Source: Paracrocinitomix mangrovi (GTDB lineage: Bacteria > Bacteroidota > Bacteroidia > Flavobacteriales_D > Crocinitomicaceae). From it: a DNA stretch of 64,000 bases. The notes beneath the pieces are model-generated. The model saw only the letters and a list, made by a program, of their open reading frames with translations. It was not told where the DNA came from and ran no database searches. The DNA is taken from positions 2,480,001-2,544,000 of the forward strand of contig NZ_CP091819.1 in NCBI RefSeq assembly GCF_019740355.2, in the 5' to 3' direction. Positions 3,124 through 55,562 of the stretch are shown piece by piece (the first letter of the stretch is position 1; each line of letters starts with the position of its first letter). A program made the translations under genes and the position numbers.

Positions 3124-4041
3124 CTAAACGTAGGTAATAAAGGCATCTTTGAACCCTTTATCCTGCACATCCTTCCTAACCGGTTTTGCATCTTTCTTGC
3201 TATTGTATTTTCCTACGTAATAGCGATACTTGTAGTTACTACTCGTCTCTATCATGACACGTTCTACCTCATAATCAATACACTTAAAACGAGCATCATC
3301 AGGTTCAATTGGCGATTTAGATGACATTATTTGTACCCTATAAAAAGCCTCATTCTTGCCCTCTTCCTTCACTACATTTTCCTGTAATTCTTTAACACTA
3401 AAATCAATTTTTGGATGCTGTGTTTTAACAAAAGATCTAGTAGCTCTAAAAATGGCAGATGCAATTATATCTTGTCCATAATCAGTAGCTAAATAGGCAG
3501 ATTCAGTAGAATTAGTAATAAATCCACACTCTACAACAACTGTTGGAATCTTGGTAAACTTTAATACTTGCAACGAATGTCCCAAATCATCAGAAGTTTT
3601 AACTCCCCTACTGTGTCTTCCTGCTCTACTTTTAAATTGATCTTCTATCAACTGAGCCCATTTGTAAGATGTTTTAGCAGCATAGTTATGAATGATGGTT
3701 TCTGTGCCACTGATTTGATCTTTAGTACTTCCATTGATATGAATACTTAACATATAATCATACCCATTGTTAGCCATCTCAACTCTTTCATCCAAGGTAG
3801 GATAAGAATCATCTGTTCTTGTATAACCTACTTTAACATTGCCAATATTGTGGGTTAAATAAAACCCAACTTTCTCCGCAATTTTTAGTGTCAATACCTT
3901 TTCTTGCAATCCGTTTTTTACATGCGGTAAATGACCGGGATCTTTTCCGCCATGACCGGGATCAATCAAAATTGAAACTTGATCATCATTGGCCCTTACT
4001 AACAAAGCCGTAAAACACAATATGGTAAATATGTACTTCAT
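3124..4041 (-). CDS. N-acetylmuramoyl-L-alanine amidase with C-terminal SPOR-like domain
   Basis: 305 aa, secreted: signal peptide at 1-17. Amidase_3 domain about 22-210 with the full zinc/catalytic set: His30 in DPGHGG, Glu47, His101 in SIHING and Glu171 in VVECGF. It cleaves the lactyl-amide bond between MurNAc and the peptide stem. The C-terminal ~70 residues (YRVQIMSS ... YRYYVGKY) look like a SPOR domain, which binds denuded glycan strands, so a role in daughter-cell separation is likely. Stands alone on the minus strand. Confidence 0.93.
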   Translation of the reverse strand: MKYIFTILCFTALLVRANDDQVSILIDPGHGGKDPGHLPHVKNGLQEKVLTLKIAEKVGFYLTHNIGNVKVGYTRTDDSYPTLDERVEMANNGYDYMLSIHINGSTKDQISGTETIIHNYAAKTSYKWAQLIEDQFKSRAGRHSRGVKTSDDLGHSLQVLKFTKIPTVVVECGFITNSTESAYLATDYGQDIIASAIFRATRSFVKTQHPKIDFSVKELQENVVKEEGKNEAFYRVQIMSSKSPIEPDDARFKCIDYEVERVMIETSSNYKYRYYVGKYNSKKDAKPVRKDVQDKGFKDAFITYV

Positions 4042-50495: not shown

Positions 50496-51461
50496 ATGGA
50501 TAAAAACAAAATTGCCGTAGTTGATTACCATGATTACACTTCAGGTGATCCGGAAAAAAGAGCTCGTTTTATTCAAGAGTTTGGAGATTCATTCTCTAAC
50601 ATGGGTTTTGCCATTGTTAAAAACCATGGAGTAAGTGAAGAACTTAAAGCCAAATTATTTGAAGTTTCAAAAGCTTTCTTTGCATTACCTGATGATGTAA
50701 AGAAGCAATATGAAGATGAAGCAAATCATGGACAAAGAGGGTACATTTCAAAAAATAAAGAAAGTGCAAAAGGCCAATCTGTTCCTGATATAAAAGAATT
50801 TTATCACATTGGTCAAACTGTTACAGATGGTGATCCAATTAAAAGTGAATATCCAGACAATATCTTTCCTGATGTAATTGCTGAATTTGAAGCAGTTACT
50901 CAAAAAGTATATCAAACATTTGAGCAAACAGGTAGAAATTTACTGCGTTCAACTGCACTGTATCTAGATTTACCTGAGACTTATTTTGACGATAAAATCC
51001 ACAATGGGAATAGCATTTTAAGATTGTTGCATTACTATCCTGTAAAAGACAAATCGCAAATTCCTGCCGGAGCTGTTAGAGCTGCTGCTCATGGTGATAT
51101 CAACTTAATTACACTGTTAATGGGTGGATCTGCTGATGGACTAGAAGCACAAACTTTAGATGGTGAATGGATTCCGGTAAGCCCTGCAGATGATGAGATT
51201 GTGATTAACATTGGAGACATGTTAGCGAGATTAACAAACGATAGATTGAGATCAACTCAACACAGAGTTATCACACCAAGAGAAGAGTCATGGTTAACAC
51301 CAAGATACTCTACTCCGTTTTTCTTGCACCCAAGATCAGATATGGATTTGACATGTTTAGACACTTGTATCTCAGATGAAAATCCTAAGTTGTATGAAGA
51401 TATGACAGCAGGTGAATTCCTAACAGAAAGACTAATTGAATTAGGATTGAAAAAAGCCTAA
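50496..51461 (+). CDS. 2-oxoglutarate/Fe(II)-dependent oxygenase, isopenicillin-N-synthase-like
   Basis: 321 aa with the double-stranded beta-helix of plant-type 2OG oxygenases. N-terminal DIOX_N part (about 1-140, FAIVKNHGV); iron ligands His-x-Asp in AAHGDINLITLL (about 189) and a distal His in RSTQHRV; Arg/Ser of the RYSTPFF motif bind the co-substrate. No beta-lactam genes are nearby; in Bacteroidota the substrate is unknown. It starts 2 nt after clpX, so it is very probably in the clpPX transcript. Confidence 0.9.
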   Translation: MDKNKIAVVDYHDYTSGDPEKRARFIQEFGDSFSNMGFAIVKNHGVSEELKAKLFEVSKAFFALPDDVKKQYEDEANHGQRGYISKNKESAKGQSVPDIKEFYHIGQTVTDGDPIKSEYPDNIFPDVIAEFEAVTQKVYQTFEQTGRNLLRSTALYLDLPETYFDDKIHNGNSILRLLHYYPVKDKSQIPAGAVRAAAHGDINLITLLMGGSADGLEAQTLDGEWIPVSPADDEIVINIGDMLARLTNDRLRSTQHRVITPREESWLTPRYSTPFFLHPRSDMDLTCLDTCISDENPKLYEDMTAGEFLTERLIELGLKKA

Positions 51462-51481: not shown

Positions 51482-51512
51482 AAATCCCACCCAATGCGGT
51501 GGGATTTTTTTT
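51482..51512 (+). terminator. Rho-independent terminator (copy 1 of an identical 31-bp pair)
   Basis: Stem AATCCCACC (51483-51491) / GGTGGGATT (51498-51506) then eight Ts. The whole 31 bp recurs unchanged at 54370-54400. Confidence 0.93.
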
Positions 51513-51539
51513 GCTACATGTTAAAAGTTTATACTTTTA
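51510..51539 (+). promoter_or_regulatory. Candidate promoter for the large T9SS protein
   Basis: TTTG (51510-51513, in the terminator tail), 18-nt spacer, TACTTTTA (51532-51539; one mismatch to TAnnTTTG), 15 nt before the ATG. Confidence 0.4.
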
Positions 51540-51554
51540 AGCAAAATTTTAATT

Positions 51555-54365
51555 ATGAAACATTTAACCCAATTACTGCTTCTATTTATTCCATTTCTTT
51601 CGTTGAGTCAATCGAGTATTTCAAAAGGATTTAACTATACAGGAACATCCGCCATAAGTGGTGCATACATTGAAAAAGACCTCACTAATAATGAGTTTTA
51701 TGTGTCTACTCAAAAACAAAACGCTACAAACACTTTTGTCACCATTACTAAACTAAGTGAAAATGGAAAAACACTATGGTCAACTAAACATGATTTTCCG
51801 GCTTTATACATATCGGCTTTAAGCGGTTTTTTTGATATCAAAATTGTAGGCTCCTATTTATATACCGGTCATCTTTTGTCTACATCTCCTTCTGCCAATT
51901 CAATCAAAATTTTAAAGTTTGATATGAGTGGTAATTACGTAGATGAACTTGATATTACAACCGCCAACGGTTTTTACAGAAGAAAATCAGAAATGTCAGT
52001 TACTGATAATGATAAACTCATTTTTGCTGCACAGTTAAACGGAAGTAATACCGTACTCACATATTTAATTGATCCCGTAACCATGACTGTTGCTAACAAT
52101 GTTGTTACCGGAGCTTCTTCAGATGGAGCAACACAAGATTTTAGAATGTTTTGGACAGAAAATGACGGAGATAACAACGTCATTGCCTTCAATAGAGCGG
52201 ATTCTATTAGGTTTTTTAAGTTAAACAATGTAGGAGTAGCTATTGATAGTTTTAGTATTTATTCTCCTAACGCAGATTTGGCTGACTTTGCTATCAATGG
52301 AAATAACTATGAAATGGTTTTGAACACAACGACTACACCATCTGTTCCAGCTGACAATCCGGTTATTGTTAAAACTATTTCAAATACCGGATCCGCCATA
52401 ACTGACTTCTCATTCGATCCTATGGCTCCTTATCAGTATTCAGATATTGCCCTTGATCAAAATGGGGATTATCTAGTGTCTTGCCGTGGACCTTGGGCTG
52501 GAGTGAACACTACTAATAGTGCAATTATTAAAATCAATAGTTCAGGAATTCAACAAGAATTTTCTATTGAAGAAACAAAATTGTGTGAAATTGATATAAC
52601 CGCTTCAAACATATTTTCCTCTGGAATAGAAGCTGATATAGTGAATGATTGTCAGGAAGATCATGAAGGATTGACATTTATTAAATATGAAGAAAACTCA
52701 ACGCCAGAATTAAATATTGCTTCTCCGCATATGAAACTTGAAAACAATAATATTGAAGCCGTTATTTCTTCATGTGGTAGCAATTTTCAAGACACTTACA
52801 ACGGAATCAATGGTTATTTAGTGAATGGTACTGATGCCATTTATAGATCAGTATTGCATATATGTGGTGTTGATCAAATGGGTCAAATTCATTCCTCTTC
52901 TCAAAATTACTACGAGGTTTATGCCGCCGGCCCTGTCACAAATCAAACAGATTATGTACAAACAGAAAGAGATAAATGGGACAGGGTTTGGATAATCGAC
53001 AAACAACAAATTGATGCACATATTTTAGCTTTTCAAACAGGAGATGCTTCTTATAAAATTCCAGAAGTGATTCTTAATTGGCCAGCACATGGTGATGTAA
53101 GCAAAGGACAATTGGCAAATTTGGCCAGGTATAAGGATATAAACAGCAATGGAGTTTATGAGCCTCATGAAGGTGAATATCCATTGATAAAAGGAGATTA
53201 CTGTGCACTTTCAATTTACAATGACTTTAATACTGATACTGCCAACAATTGTATTTTATCTACCGACAGAATGAATGTGCAGATTTCAGAATATCAGTAT
53301 GGATTTCAATGTACTGGTGACTCTGCCTTGCAAAACACATTGTTTACTTATTATGAGATAATTAATTTATCAGCTAATGACTATGATTCTACTGTTATTG
53401 GTCATTACAATGACTTTGATGTTGCACAAGTATTTGCCAATTATGTAGGAACAGATCCTTCAAGAGGGATGACCTATTCATGGTATACTCAGTTTGATTC
53501 TATCCATCAGTCCTATGTTATTTTAGGTGCAAATATGATGGCAGATGGCTTTGATAATCCATATGGCATAGGAGCTCTAGAAAGTGTAAATGGAATTGGA
53601 TTTGGTGACGGAATTGAAGATAATGAAAGAATGGGAATGACTAATTCTATGTACTTCAATGCAGGTGGAGGCGTTACAGGAGATCCCAGCACAGTATCTG
53701 ACTATTTTAGTTATTTGTATTCAATTTGGAAAGATGGAACTCATGTTACTTATGGAGGAACAGGCCACAATAGTTCCGGAATTGAAAGTGATTATTTCTT
53801 TCCTGGAGGAGACGACACTTTGTTTGGGGGGACTAGCGGCACAGACCCGGGTGGAGATTGGTCAGAAGTAGGTGAAAGCAATCCGGCAGGAGACAGAAGA
53901 ATTATTGGATCTGTAGGACCAATTTCATTTGACATGCAAGACACATTATTTTTTGATATTGCCTATGTGTCAGGAGTAAAAAATTCAAGTGGGTTAAGCA
54001 GTCATGAAATACTGGATGAAAACGTAGATTCATCTCGAGCTTATTTTATTGACAACACAACACCTTGCGGTCAAGATTTTGATTTCTATGCTCCTTTTGA
54101 TGGACCTTATCCTTCAATTGGGTTTGAAGAAAATGTTGCTACACTTTTAGTTTATCCAAATCCTACAAAAGGCAATTTGACCGTTCAAAACATCAAGGAA
54201 AATAGCACCCTAATAATATACAATTCAAATGGTTCAATATTGTATGTTAACCAAAACGTATCTAACGGAATTGTTTTAAATGTCAACGATTACGCTAAGG
54301 GCTTATATATACTGGAGATTAGCTCAGATCAGAGCACTGAACGAATTAAATTCATCAAACAATAA
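51555..54365 (+). CDS. Large secreted protein with T9SS type A sorting domain
   Basis: 936 aa; signal peptide about 1-19 (LLLLFIPFLSLSQS). The N-terminal ~390 residues are beta-rich and repetitive (possibly a propeller); the middle region (about 400-830) has Asp/Gly-rich stretches typical of Bacteroidota surface proteins; the last ~80 residues (VYPNPTKGNLTVQNI ... KGLYILEISS) are a type A sorting domain. No enzyme motif recognised. The gene has its own candidate promoter and is bracketed by two identical terminators. Confidence 0.88.
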   Translation: MKHLTQLLLLFIPFLSLSQSSISKGFNYTGTSAISGAYIEKDLTNNEFYVSTQKQNATNTFVTITKLSENGKTLWSTKHDFPALYISALSGFFDIKIVGSYLYTGHLLSTSPSANSIKILKFDMSGNYVDELDITTANGFYRRKSEMSVTDNDKLIFAAQLNGSNTVLTYLIDPVTMTVANNVVTGASSDGATQDFRMFWTENDGDNNVIAFNRADSIRFFKLNNVGVAIDSFSIYSPNADLADFAINGNNYEMVLNTTTTPSVPADNPVIVKTISNTGSAITDFSFDPMAPYQYSDIALDQNGDYLVSCRGPWAGVNTTNSAIIKINSSGIQQEFSIEETKLCEIDITASNIFSSGIEADIVNDCQEDHEGLTFIKYEENSTPELNIASPHMKLENNNIEAVISSCGSNFQDTYNGINGYLVNGTDAIYRSVLHICGVDQMGQIHSSSQNYYEVYAAGPVTNQTDYVQTERDKWDRVWIIDKQQIDAHILAFQTGDASYKIPEVILNWPAHGDVSKGQLANLARYKDINSNGVYEPHEGEYPLIKGDYCALSIYNDFNTDTANNCILSTDRMNVQISEYQYGFQCTGDSALQNTLFTYYEIINLSANDYDSTVIGHYNDFDVAQVFANYVGTDPSRGMTYSWYTQFDSIHQSYVILGANMMADGFDNPYGIGALESVNGIGFGDGIEDNERMGMTNSMYFNAGGGVTGDPSTVSDYFSYLYSIWKDGTHVTYGGTGHNSSGIESDYFFPGGDDTLFGGTSGTDPGGDWSEVGESNPAGDRRIIGSVGPISFDMQDTLFFDIAYVSGVKNSSGLSSHEILDENVDSSRAYFIDNTTPCGQDFDFYAPFDGPYPSIGFEENVATLLVYPNPTKGNLTVQNIKENSTLIIYNSNGSILYVNQNVSNGIVLNVNDYAKGLYILEISSDQSTERIKFIKQ

Positions 54366-54369
54366 ATTA

Positions 54370-54400
54370 AAATCCCACCCAATGCGGTGGGATTTTTTTT
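54370..54400 (+). terminator. Rho-independent terminator (copy 2 of an identical 31-bp pair)
   Basis: Same sequence as 51482-51512, with stem, loop and eight-T tail identical. Ends the T9SS gene 5 nt after its stop. Confidence 0.93.
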
Positions 54401-54413
54401 AGATTAGCAAGGA

Positions 54414-55562
54414 ATGAAAAACAGTAAAATATATCTCTACTCATTTGGTTTTATAGCCGTTATGCTGCTATTATTCTATTTGTTAGGATCTATTTTATTG
54501 CCATTTGTGATAGGTTTAATGCTGGCGGCAATCTTGAATCCTTTAGTTAAAAAAGTACAAAGGTTGATACCAAATAGAAATTTAGCCGTAACCAGCTTAC
54601 TCGTTTTGACCTTTGCCGTATTTACCTCTGTTTTATACATTTTTGGTAACGAGATTGTCAAAGACATTCAAAGACTGAATGGTGCCTTTGTAACATTTGC
54701 AGATGACCATCACGAGCAAATAGATGAAACCAATGCAGAAATCAGATCCTTTCTTCAGCAGATTTATAACACAGATCAAGTTCAAGAAGGAATCCATACA
54801 ATTGAAAATGAATCTGATTCATTACAGGCCACAGCTTTAGACAATTTACAAACCGCACTTTCAGGAATCAGTTCTTTTATAGGATCATCAGATAACAGTC
54901 CAGAAGAAGTTAAGGAGGTGGTGAACCTCAATTGGATGGCTATTTTTCTGGGATCCATCATTTACTTCCTTTACATTATTTACACCTTCAATTATTTTGA
55001 AGAAAAATACCAAAAGTACTTTGATGGCAATTTAAAGAAAATGCAGTTTATCAAAGATTTCATAAGTGATTTCAAGCGCATTTTTCTCAACTATTTTGGA
55101 AAAAGAACTGAAGTGGTAGTGATTTGTTTTGCCGTGTTCTTAATCACCTTTTTGATAGTTGACCTGCCGGGTGGGATTATAATAGCATGTATTGCAGCTA
55201 TTTTATGTTATATACCACATTTTCATTATTTGGCTTTGATTCCAATATCTTTAGGGTGCTGGGTATTGTCAATGGAAACAGGAACGGGATTTTTTGTATA
55301 CCTGGGTAGTATAGCAGGTGTTTTTGTTGTTGTTTCTGTACTGGAAGAATTACTTTTTACGCCTAAAATCATGAAGGATTACAATGGATTAAATCCGGCC
55401 ATTATGATTCTTTCTTTTGCATTATGGAGCCATTTGTTTGGCACCGTTTTAGGAACTTTAATAGCACTGCCACTTACTACTGTTATATTAATCTATATAG
55501 ACAGATTACTGGTACATACTAAAGAAGTGTTGATAGAAGAAAATGAACAAGTAAATATTTGA
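54414..55562 (+). CDS. AI-2E family transporter (PerM-like permease)
   Basis: 382 aa polytopic membrane protein with about eight helices: two near the N-terminus (about 10-65), a charged soluble stretch (about 75-160), then the rest. The C-terminal LPLTTVILIYIDRLL and the region GLNPAIMILSFALWSHLFGTVLG (as GLNPAIMIL and LWSHLFGTVLG) match PF01594. Members export small molecules or sodium; the name does not prove autoinducer transport. Confidence 0.9.
   Translation: MKNSKIYLYSFGFIAVMLLLFYLLGSILLPFVIGLMLAAILNPLVKKVQRLIPNRNLAVTSLLVLTFAVFTSVLYIFGNEIVKDIQRLNGAFVTFADDHHEQIDETNAEIRSFLQQIYNTDQVQEGIHTIENESDSLQATALDNLQTALSGISSFIGSSDNSPEEVKEVVNLNWMAIFLGSIIYFLYIIYTFNYFEEKYQKYFDGNLKKMQFIKDFISDFKRIFLNYFGKRTEVVVICFAVFLITFLIVDLPGGIIIACIAAILCYIPHFHYLALIPISLGCWVLSMETGTGFFVYLGSIAGVFVVVSVLEELLFTPKIMKDYNGLNPAIMILSFALWSHLFGTVLGTLIALPLTTVILIYIDRLLVHTKEVLIEENEQVNI

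Follow-up and report, generated by a model that had tools for sequence, protein, structure and literature searches.

A probable local copy of a terminator beside a probably older T9SS gene in Paracrocinitomix mangrovi

A gene that stands between two copies of a short perfect repeat can be read against several described systems. Intrinsic (Rho-independent) terminators, which combine a stem with a G+C-rich core, a short loop and a T-run behind a gene, are one of them. RecA-independent deletion between short direct repeats is another: in the accessible text of PMC5426353, deletion was detectable in a plasmid model with repeats of 46 bp at a distance of 886 bp, and the same text, citing others, states that recombination becomes more frequent as repeats lengthen and the distance between them shrinks. 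Integrons, finally, are reported from Bacteroidota in the accessible part of PMC8618304. Among the papers listed by searches on terminators as sites of insertion, duplication or deletion, or on their evolution, none dealt with duplicated terminators, which is not to claim that the matter is unpublished.

Here, we describe a locus at which an exact repeat of 31 bp encloses a single gene. The window – the whole stretch of 64,000 nucleotides that was analysed – corresponds to positions 2480001–2544000 of a genome consisting of one contig of 4,365,762 bases, and coordinates refer to the window unless a contig or locus is named. The repeat, AAATCCCACCCAATGCGGTGGGATTTTTTTT, lies on the + strand at 51482–51512 and again at 54370–54400, with 2,857 bp between the two copies, and the identity noticed in the first-pass annotation is indeed exact, loop and T-run included. 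Copy 1 is found 20 bp 3' of the stop codon of a 2OG-Fe(II) oxygenase family gene (50496–51461, +), which stands at the end of a conserved tig–clpP–clpX–2OG block; copy 2 follows the stop codon of the enclosed gene by 4 bp and precedes the start codon of an AI-2E family transporter gene (54414–55562, +) by 13 bp.

Both copies can form a hairpin with the loop CAATGC and a T-run after the stem, and the predicted folding energy of the 31 nt is -14.8 kcal/mol; the stem has one more pair at copy 2 (11) than at copy 1 (10), there being an additional A upstream of copy 2. Each has the G+C-rich core, the short loop and the T-run behind a gene that mark an intrinsic terminator, and from this anatomy we infer that both would function as such. 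With up to 3 mismatches allowed, the window holds these two matches only, and 100 shuffled windows yielded a mean of 0.00, so the pair is not a product of chance. Exact identity between the copies ends at 31 bp. When the flanks and segment ends were compared, four of five comparisons stayed at shuffle level; the fifth, over the right 200 bp, exceeded most shuffles (14 of 300 reached the same score) through a gapped alignment of 27 columns within the two coding starts. A longer, degenerate duplication around the repeat was rejected, as these comparisons gave no good sign of one relative to shuffles.

Between the repeats there is one gene-sized ORF on the + strand, at 51555–54365, in agreement with the earlier claim of exactly one enclosed gene. 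It encodes a protein of 936 aa whose C-terminal residues 866–936 constitute a type A sorting domain of the T9SS (TIGR04183, 43.4 bits with a cut-off of 23; PF18962, 40.3 bits with a cut-off of 27), which makes it probable T9SS cargo; outside this domain, the Pfam/NCBIfam search returned no family. The N-terminus is hydrophobic, as read by eye in the translation, the predicted structure is poor (mean pLDDT 52.8), and the G+C content of the gene, at 0.354, compares with 0.352 for the window. A candidate Bacteroidota-type promoter lies at 51510–51539 (+): TTTG at 51510–51513, which we take to be the -33 element and whose three T are shared with the T-run of copy 1, is separated by 18 nt from TACTTTTA at 51532–51539. 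TACTTTTA is TAnnTTTG – the -7 promoter consensus in the accessible text of PMC9723704 – with one mismatch. That the gene has its own promoter, asserted in the first-pass annotation, is no more than plausible, with a weak candidate whose -7 box is imperfect.

Genome-wide (4.37 Mb), the 20-bp core of the repeat occurs in two exact copies, a search tolerating as many as 3 mismatches over 25 bp revealed no third one, and no other TCCCACC-N3-8-GGTGGGA hairpin (7-bp stem, loop of 3–8) exists elsewhere. The search for more copies that had been proposed thus returned none beyond the two, and a common terminator type, found throughout the genome, was rejected. Among 240 family genomes, the core is present in one, namely the genome under study (G000). 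A 24-bp pattern of the repeat matched 0 species in a genome-contig collection and nothing in viral contigs – collections from which this genome may itself be absent – and no known mobile element was matched, either by pattern in these genome and viral contigs or by blastn in plasmids.

How unusual identical terminators are was gauged in 864 kb of the same genome, made up of the window and 40 stretches, of which 6 were picked around T9SS genes and the remainder roughly spaced along the contig. Here, 94 terminator-like sites were counted by a script, hits separated by no more than about 15–30 bp being merged into one regardless of strand, and two pairs had identical cores: the 31-bp pair and a pair at a tRNA-Gly gene. 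At the latter locus (L145), 45 bp spanning the tRNA-Gly 3' end and its terminator, at 1435–1479, are repeated 108 bp downstream at 1543–1587, and ARAGORN finds one tRNA there; this repeat is a precedent for local copying of a terminator in the same genome. A sample from relatives (461,529 bases, 27 loci, 111 sites counted strand by strand, 137 pairs within 6 kb) contained one near-identical pair, in G111, at positions 3543 and 3750 of L132, 207 bp apart. Four terminator cores in this sample are common to different genomes – one between G111 and G062, and one being the terminator behind 2OG in G085 and G119 – so terminator turnover is not generally fast, and the 31-bp copy could therefore be older than supposed. 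Hairpins with the same core were seen in different relatives at L132 11099 and L133 12630, and at L126 4508, L127 4672 and L129 11453; unlike the hairpins behind the 2OG genes of the congeners, these shared cores are possibly conserved RNA elements.

The surroundings of the 2OG gene were compared in the family. Strong matches to it occur in 17 of the 240 genomes; G006, whose homologue (65 percent) lies away from clpX, was left out, and in the remaining 16 the gene stands behind clpX (clpP is missing from the ORF list of G040, and tig is cut by the contig end in G002). This count excludes matches weaker than E 1e-120, seven loci of which were also inspected, and the locus listings exclude unmatched ORFs under 85–91 aa. 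Across these 16 genomes, the slot behind the 2OG gene is variable. A convergent gene, gene X, stands directly behind it in five (G001, G013, G095, G085 and G047), lies one or two genes further in four (G119, G074, G002 and G003) and is not in the stretch viewed in seven (G000, G022, G010, G040, G055, G062 and G111); the genome under study has a gene X homologue at 30 percent only, at 3.9 Mb. Two of the 16, G000 and G022, carry the T9SS gene immediately behind 2OG, so that the comparison suggested in the first-pass annotation shows it not to be present at this locus in all relatives. With the repeat not genome-wide either, neither outcome named there as refuting the proposal was obtained. A T9SS label three genes past 2OG in G047 was rejected, since the match covers the sorting tail only (query residues 866–936, E 2e-7).

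Behind the 2OG terminator, G085 (L126 9081–9123) and G119 (L127 9245–10542), which are closely related to each other and belong to another genus, offer a nearly empty site and its filled counterpart. The two genomes are 90 percent identical over 9.1 kb to just past this terminator; there, G119 has 1,296 bp, including a 392-aa gene, where G085 has 41 bp, after which identity continues at 84 percent. Each of the two loci has one copy of the terminator core, and the slot thus takes up genes, in that case without terminator copying.

Such a slot invites the view, close to that of the first-pass annotation, that the T9SS gene was recently inserted behind the 2OG terminator as a cassette, the terminator being doubled in the same event. 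The shifting position of gene X, the insertion in G119 where its near relative has 41 bp, and the lack of the T9SS gene from the slot in all three congeners (G001, G002 and G003) all speak for it. Yet the closest relative of the gene that was found occupies the same slot in another genus, in G022, without the 31-bp repeats, and G119 acquired its insertion with its terminator left undoubled. Moreover, neither the ORFs nor the profile searches revealed a recombinase or transposase in the segment between the repeats, inverted repeats at its ends did not rise above shuffles, and the recurrence at other places that a mobile cassette might be expected to show was not seen for the unit or the repeat in what was searched of this genome, the other family genomes, the contig collections and plasmids. 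A transposon or IS-type insertion was rejected for want of a transposase and of terminal inverted repeats. The three congeners lack both gene and repeat and so do not represent the predicted empty site with one repeat; the genus is covered by four genomes, with one strain of this species. Behind 2OG, each congener has a terminator at a similar place but of different sequence. What survives of the original proposal is the duplication, probably recent as the repeat is unique and the terminators sampled in this genome nearly always differ; its cassette part finds no support in the slot of G022 and the other points above, and we consider insertion together with the terminator unlikely, if still deserving of some weight. 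The locus offers a calibration in this respect: a gene enclosed by an exact terminator repeat can pass for a cassette, yet here the closest relative of the gene that was found stands in the same slot of another genus without the repeat.

Descent of the gene and of the repeat can be considered separately. In a tree of 18 homologues of the T9SS gene (stops in tblastn matches being written as X), G000 groups exclusively with G022 at a support of 100. The summed branch length between them is about 1.25 for this gene and about 0.52 for core genes, a ratio of 2.4, compared with 3.1 (0.84 against 0.27) for a paralogue in G000 and its counterpart in G002, and 3.7 (1.20 against 0.32) for G001 and G010, although both yardsticks may be paralogues, their grouping (supports 80 and 72) being at odds with the species tree. 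As the rate between G000 and G022 is not above these yardsticks, it is compatible with common descent as well as with an old transfer. On the core tree, which used 16 of the 17 genomes (G006 left out) and has several weak deep nodes (support 34–56), descent would imply about six losses, a number that speaks against simple descent, and two gains or an old transfer fewer events. A protein pattern scan of the genome-contig collection gave 8 matches, none a relative of the T9SS gene, a weak result given that the family genome search did find relatives. The repeat, by contrast, is probably younger than the gene, judging from the differing terminators of the congeners, the sister species G001 among them, and from the absence of its core genome-wide in G001, G002, G003 and G022. 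If gene and repeat differ in age, as they apparently do, it is unlikely that the repeat delimits an inserted unit. In this genus, the terminators that follow the conserved 2OG gene have different sequences in the four species, and identical pairs are rare in the part of the genome sampled (2 among 94 sites), which together make the exact pair point to fairly young copying.

The junction between copy 2 and the AI-2E gene deserves separate mention. At 54400–54414, a strong terminator is followed after 13 bp by the AI-2E start, without a consensus promoter between them: the gap leaves no room for one, TAnnTTTG does not occur in 53401–54414, nor TAnnTTT in the 160 bp 5' of the ATG. Transcription of the AI-2E gene would accordingly require read-through or a promoter located upstream of the hairpin. 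Since both hairpins lie in the same orientation 5' of a gene, this arrangement might suggest that they have been kept identical as a common leader element, a regulated terminator of the T9SS and AI-2E genes. Both copies, however, adjoin a stop codon, as ordinary terminators would, and outside the 31 bp there is no clear common sequence able to form an antiterminator. Among the four strong AI-2E matches examined (G000, G001, G010 and G028; 16 weaker ones left out), those of the three other genomes stand in other surroundings and have no hairpin with a T-run directly 5' (160 bp, by eye), and a junction of the T9SS gene with AI-2E was seen in no relative examined. A shared leader element is thus improbable, and its bolder form, in which read-through at the copied hairpin would set the output of both genes, is more improbable still; if true, terminator copying would have brought a second gene under the same read-through control.

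We give even less credence to the hairpin being a site for site-specific recombination by a recombinase acting in trans. At copy 2, two 11-bp arms enclose 6 bp, lengths in keeping with the core sites of tyrosine recombinases, and the genome encodes integrase-like proteins below the curated cut-off. Ordinary terminators have comparable lengths, however, copy 1 has only 10 pairs, the sites number only two, and integrase matches are found in 14 of 14 control genomes too, with 0 above the cut-off.

The explanation that we favour, with a probability of roughly 0.6, is a one-off and probably recent local copying of a terminator beside an older, patchily kept T9SS gene. Copy 1 would end the tig–clpP–clpX–2OG block and copy 2 the T9SS gene, one having been copied from the other once, in a short-patch event limited to 31 bp, for instance by template switching or short-tract repair. 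The T9SS gene, fast-evolving and patchily kept in a variable slot, would probably have been present before. A local, one-off copy explains both the sharp limit at 31 bp and the lack of clear similarity in the flanks, and the rarity of identical terminators in the sampled 864 kb, with one other pair, argues for a single event. We lean slightly towards copy 2 as the newer one, as the junction of the T9SS gene with AI-2E was seen in none of the relatives examined. The terminator duplication is, then, a real though minor accident of the genome, and the T9SS gene gives no impression of recent insertion as a cassette.

Compared with the systems introduced at the outset, the locus resembles an integron gene cassette in having one gene bounded by a repeat. 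The same genome does contain what looks like an integron-type cassette array, at C1:2128021–2158326, where a repeat starting TAACGTTTGG occurs 17 times on a single strand (L159, 3 copies; L148, 14; L158 and L160, 0); in the listed part of L148, neighbouring repeats are mostly separated by single ORFs on the other strand. The attC likeness is our own reading, and TIGR02249 has no match at cut-off in this genome. Inside this array, an exact direct repeat of 770 bp, offset by 761 and running from L148 13347, suggests tandem duplication of one unit. The start of the array repeat, with 1 mismatch allowed, does not occur in the window, and in this the T9SS locus differs from a cassette.

With RecA-independent deletion, the locus shares short perfect repeats around one gene, but here 31 bp are separated by 2,857 bp, as opposed to 46 bp and 886 bp in the plasmid model, as given in the accessible text of PMC5426353. 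Recombination between the repeats, which had been expected to delete the gene cleanly, may be possible, at a rate that this text would lead one to expect to be low; its product – 2OG, one terminator and AI-2E – is shown by no genome examined, the species being represented by one strain. With the intrinsic terminator, both copies share the G+C-rich hairpin core, the short loop and the T-run behind a stop codon; they stand apart from the other sampled sites, nearly all of which are unique, in that two exact copies, loop included, flank one gene.
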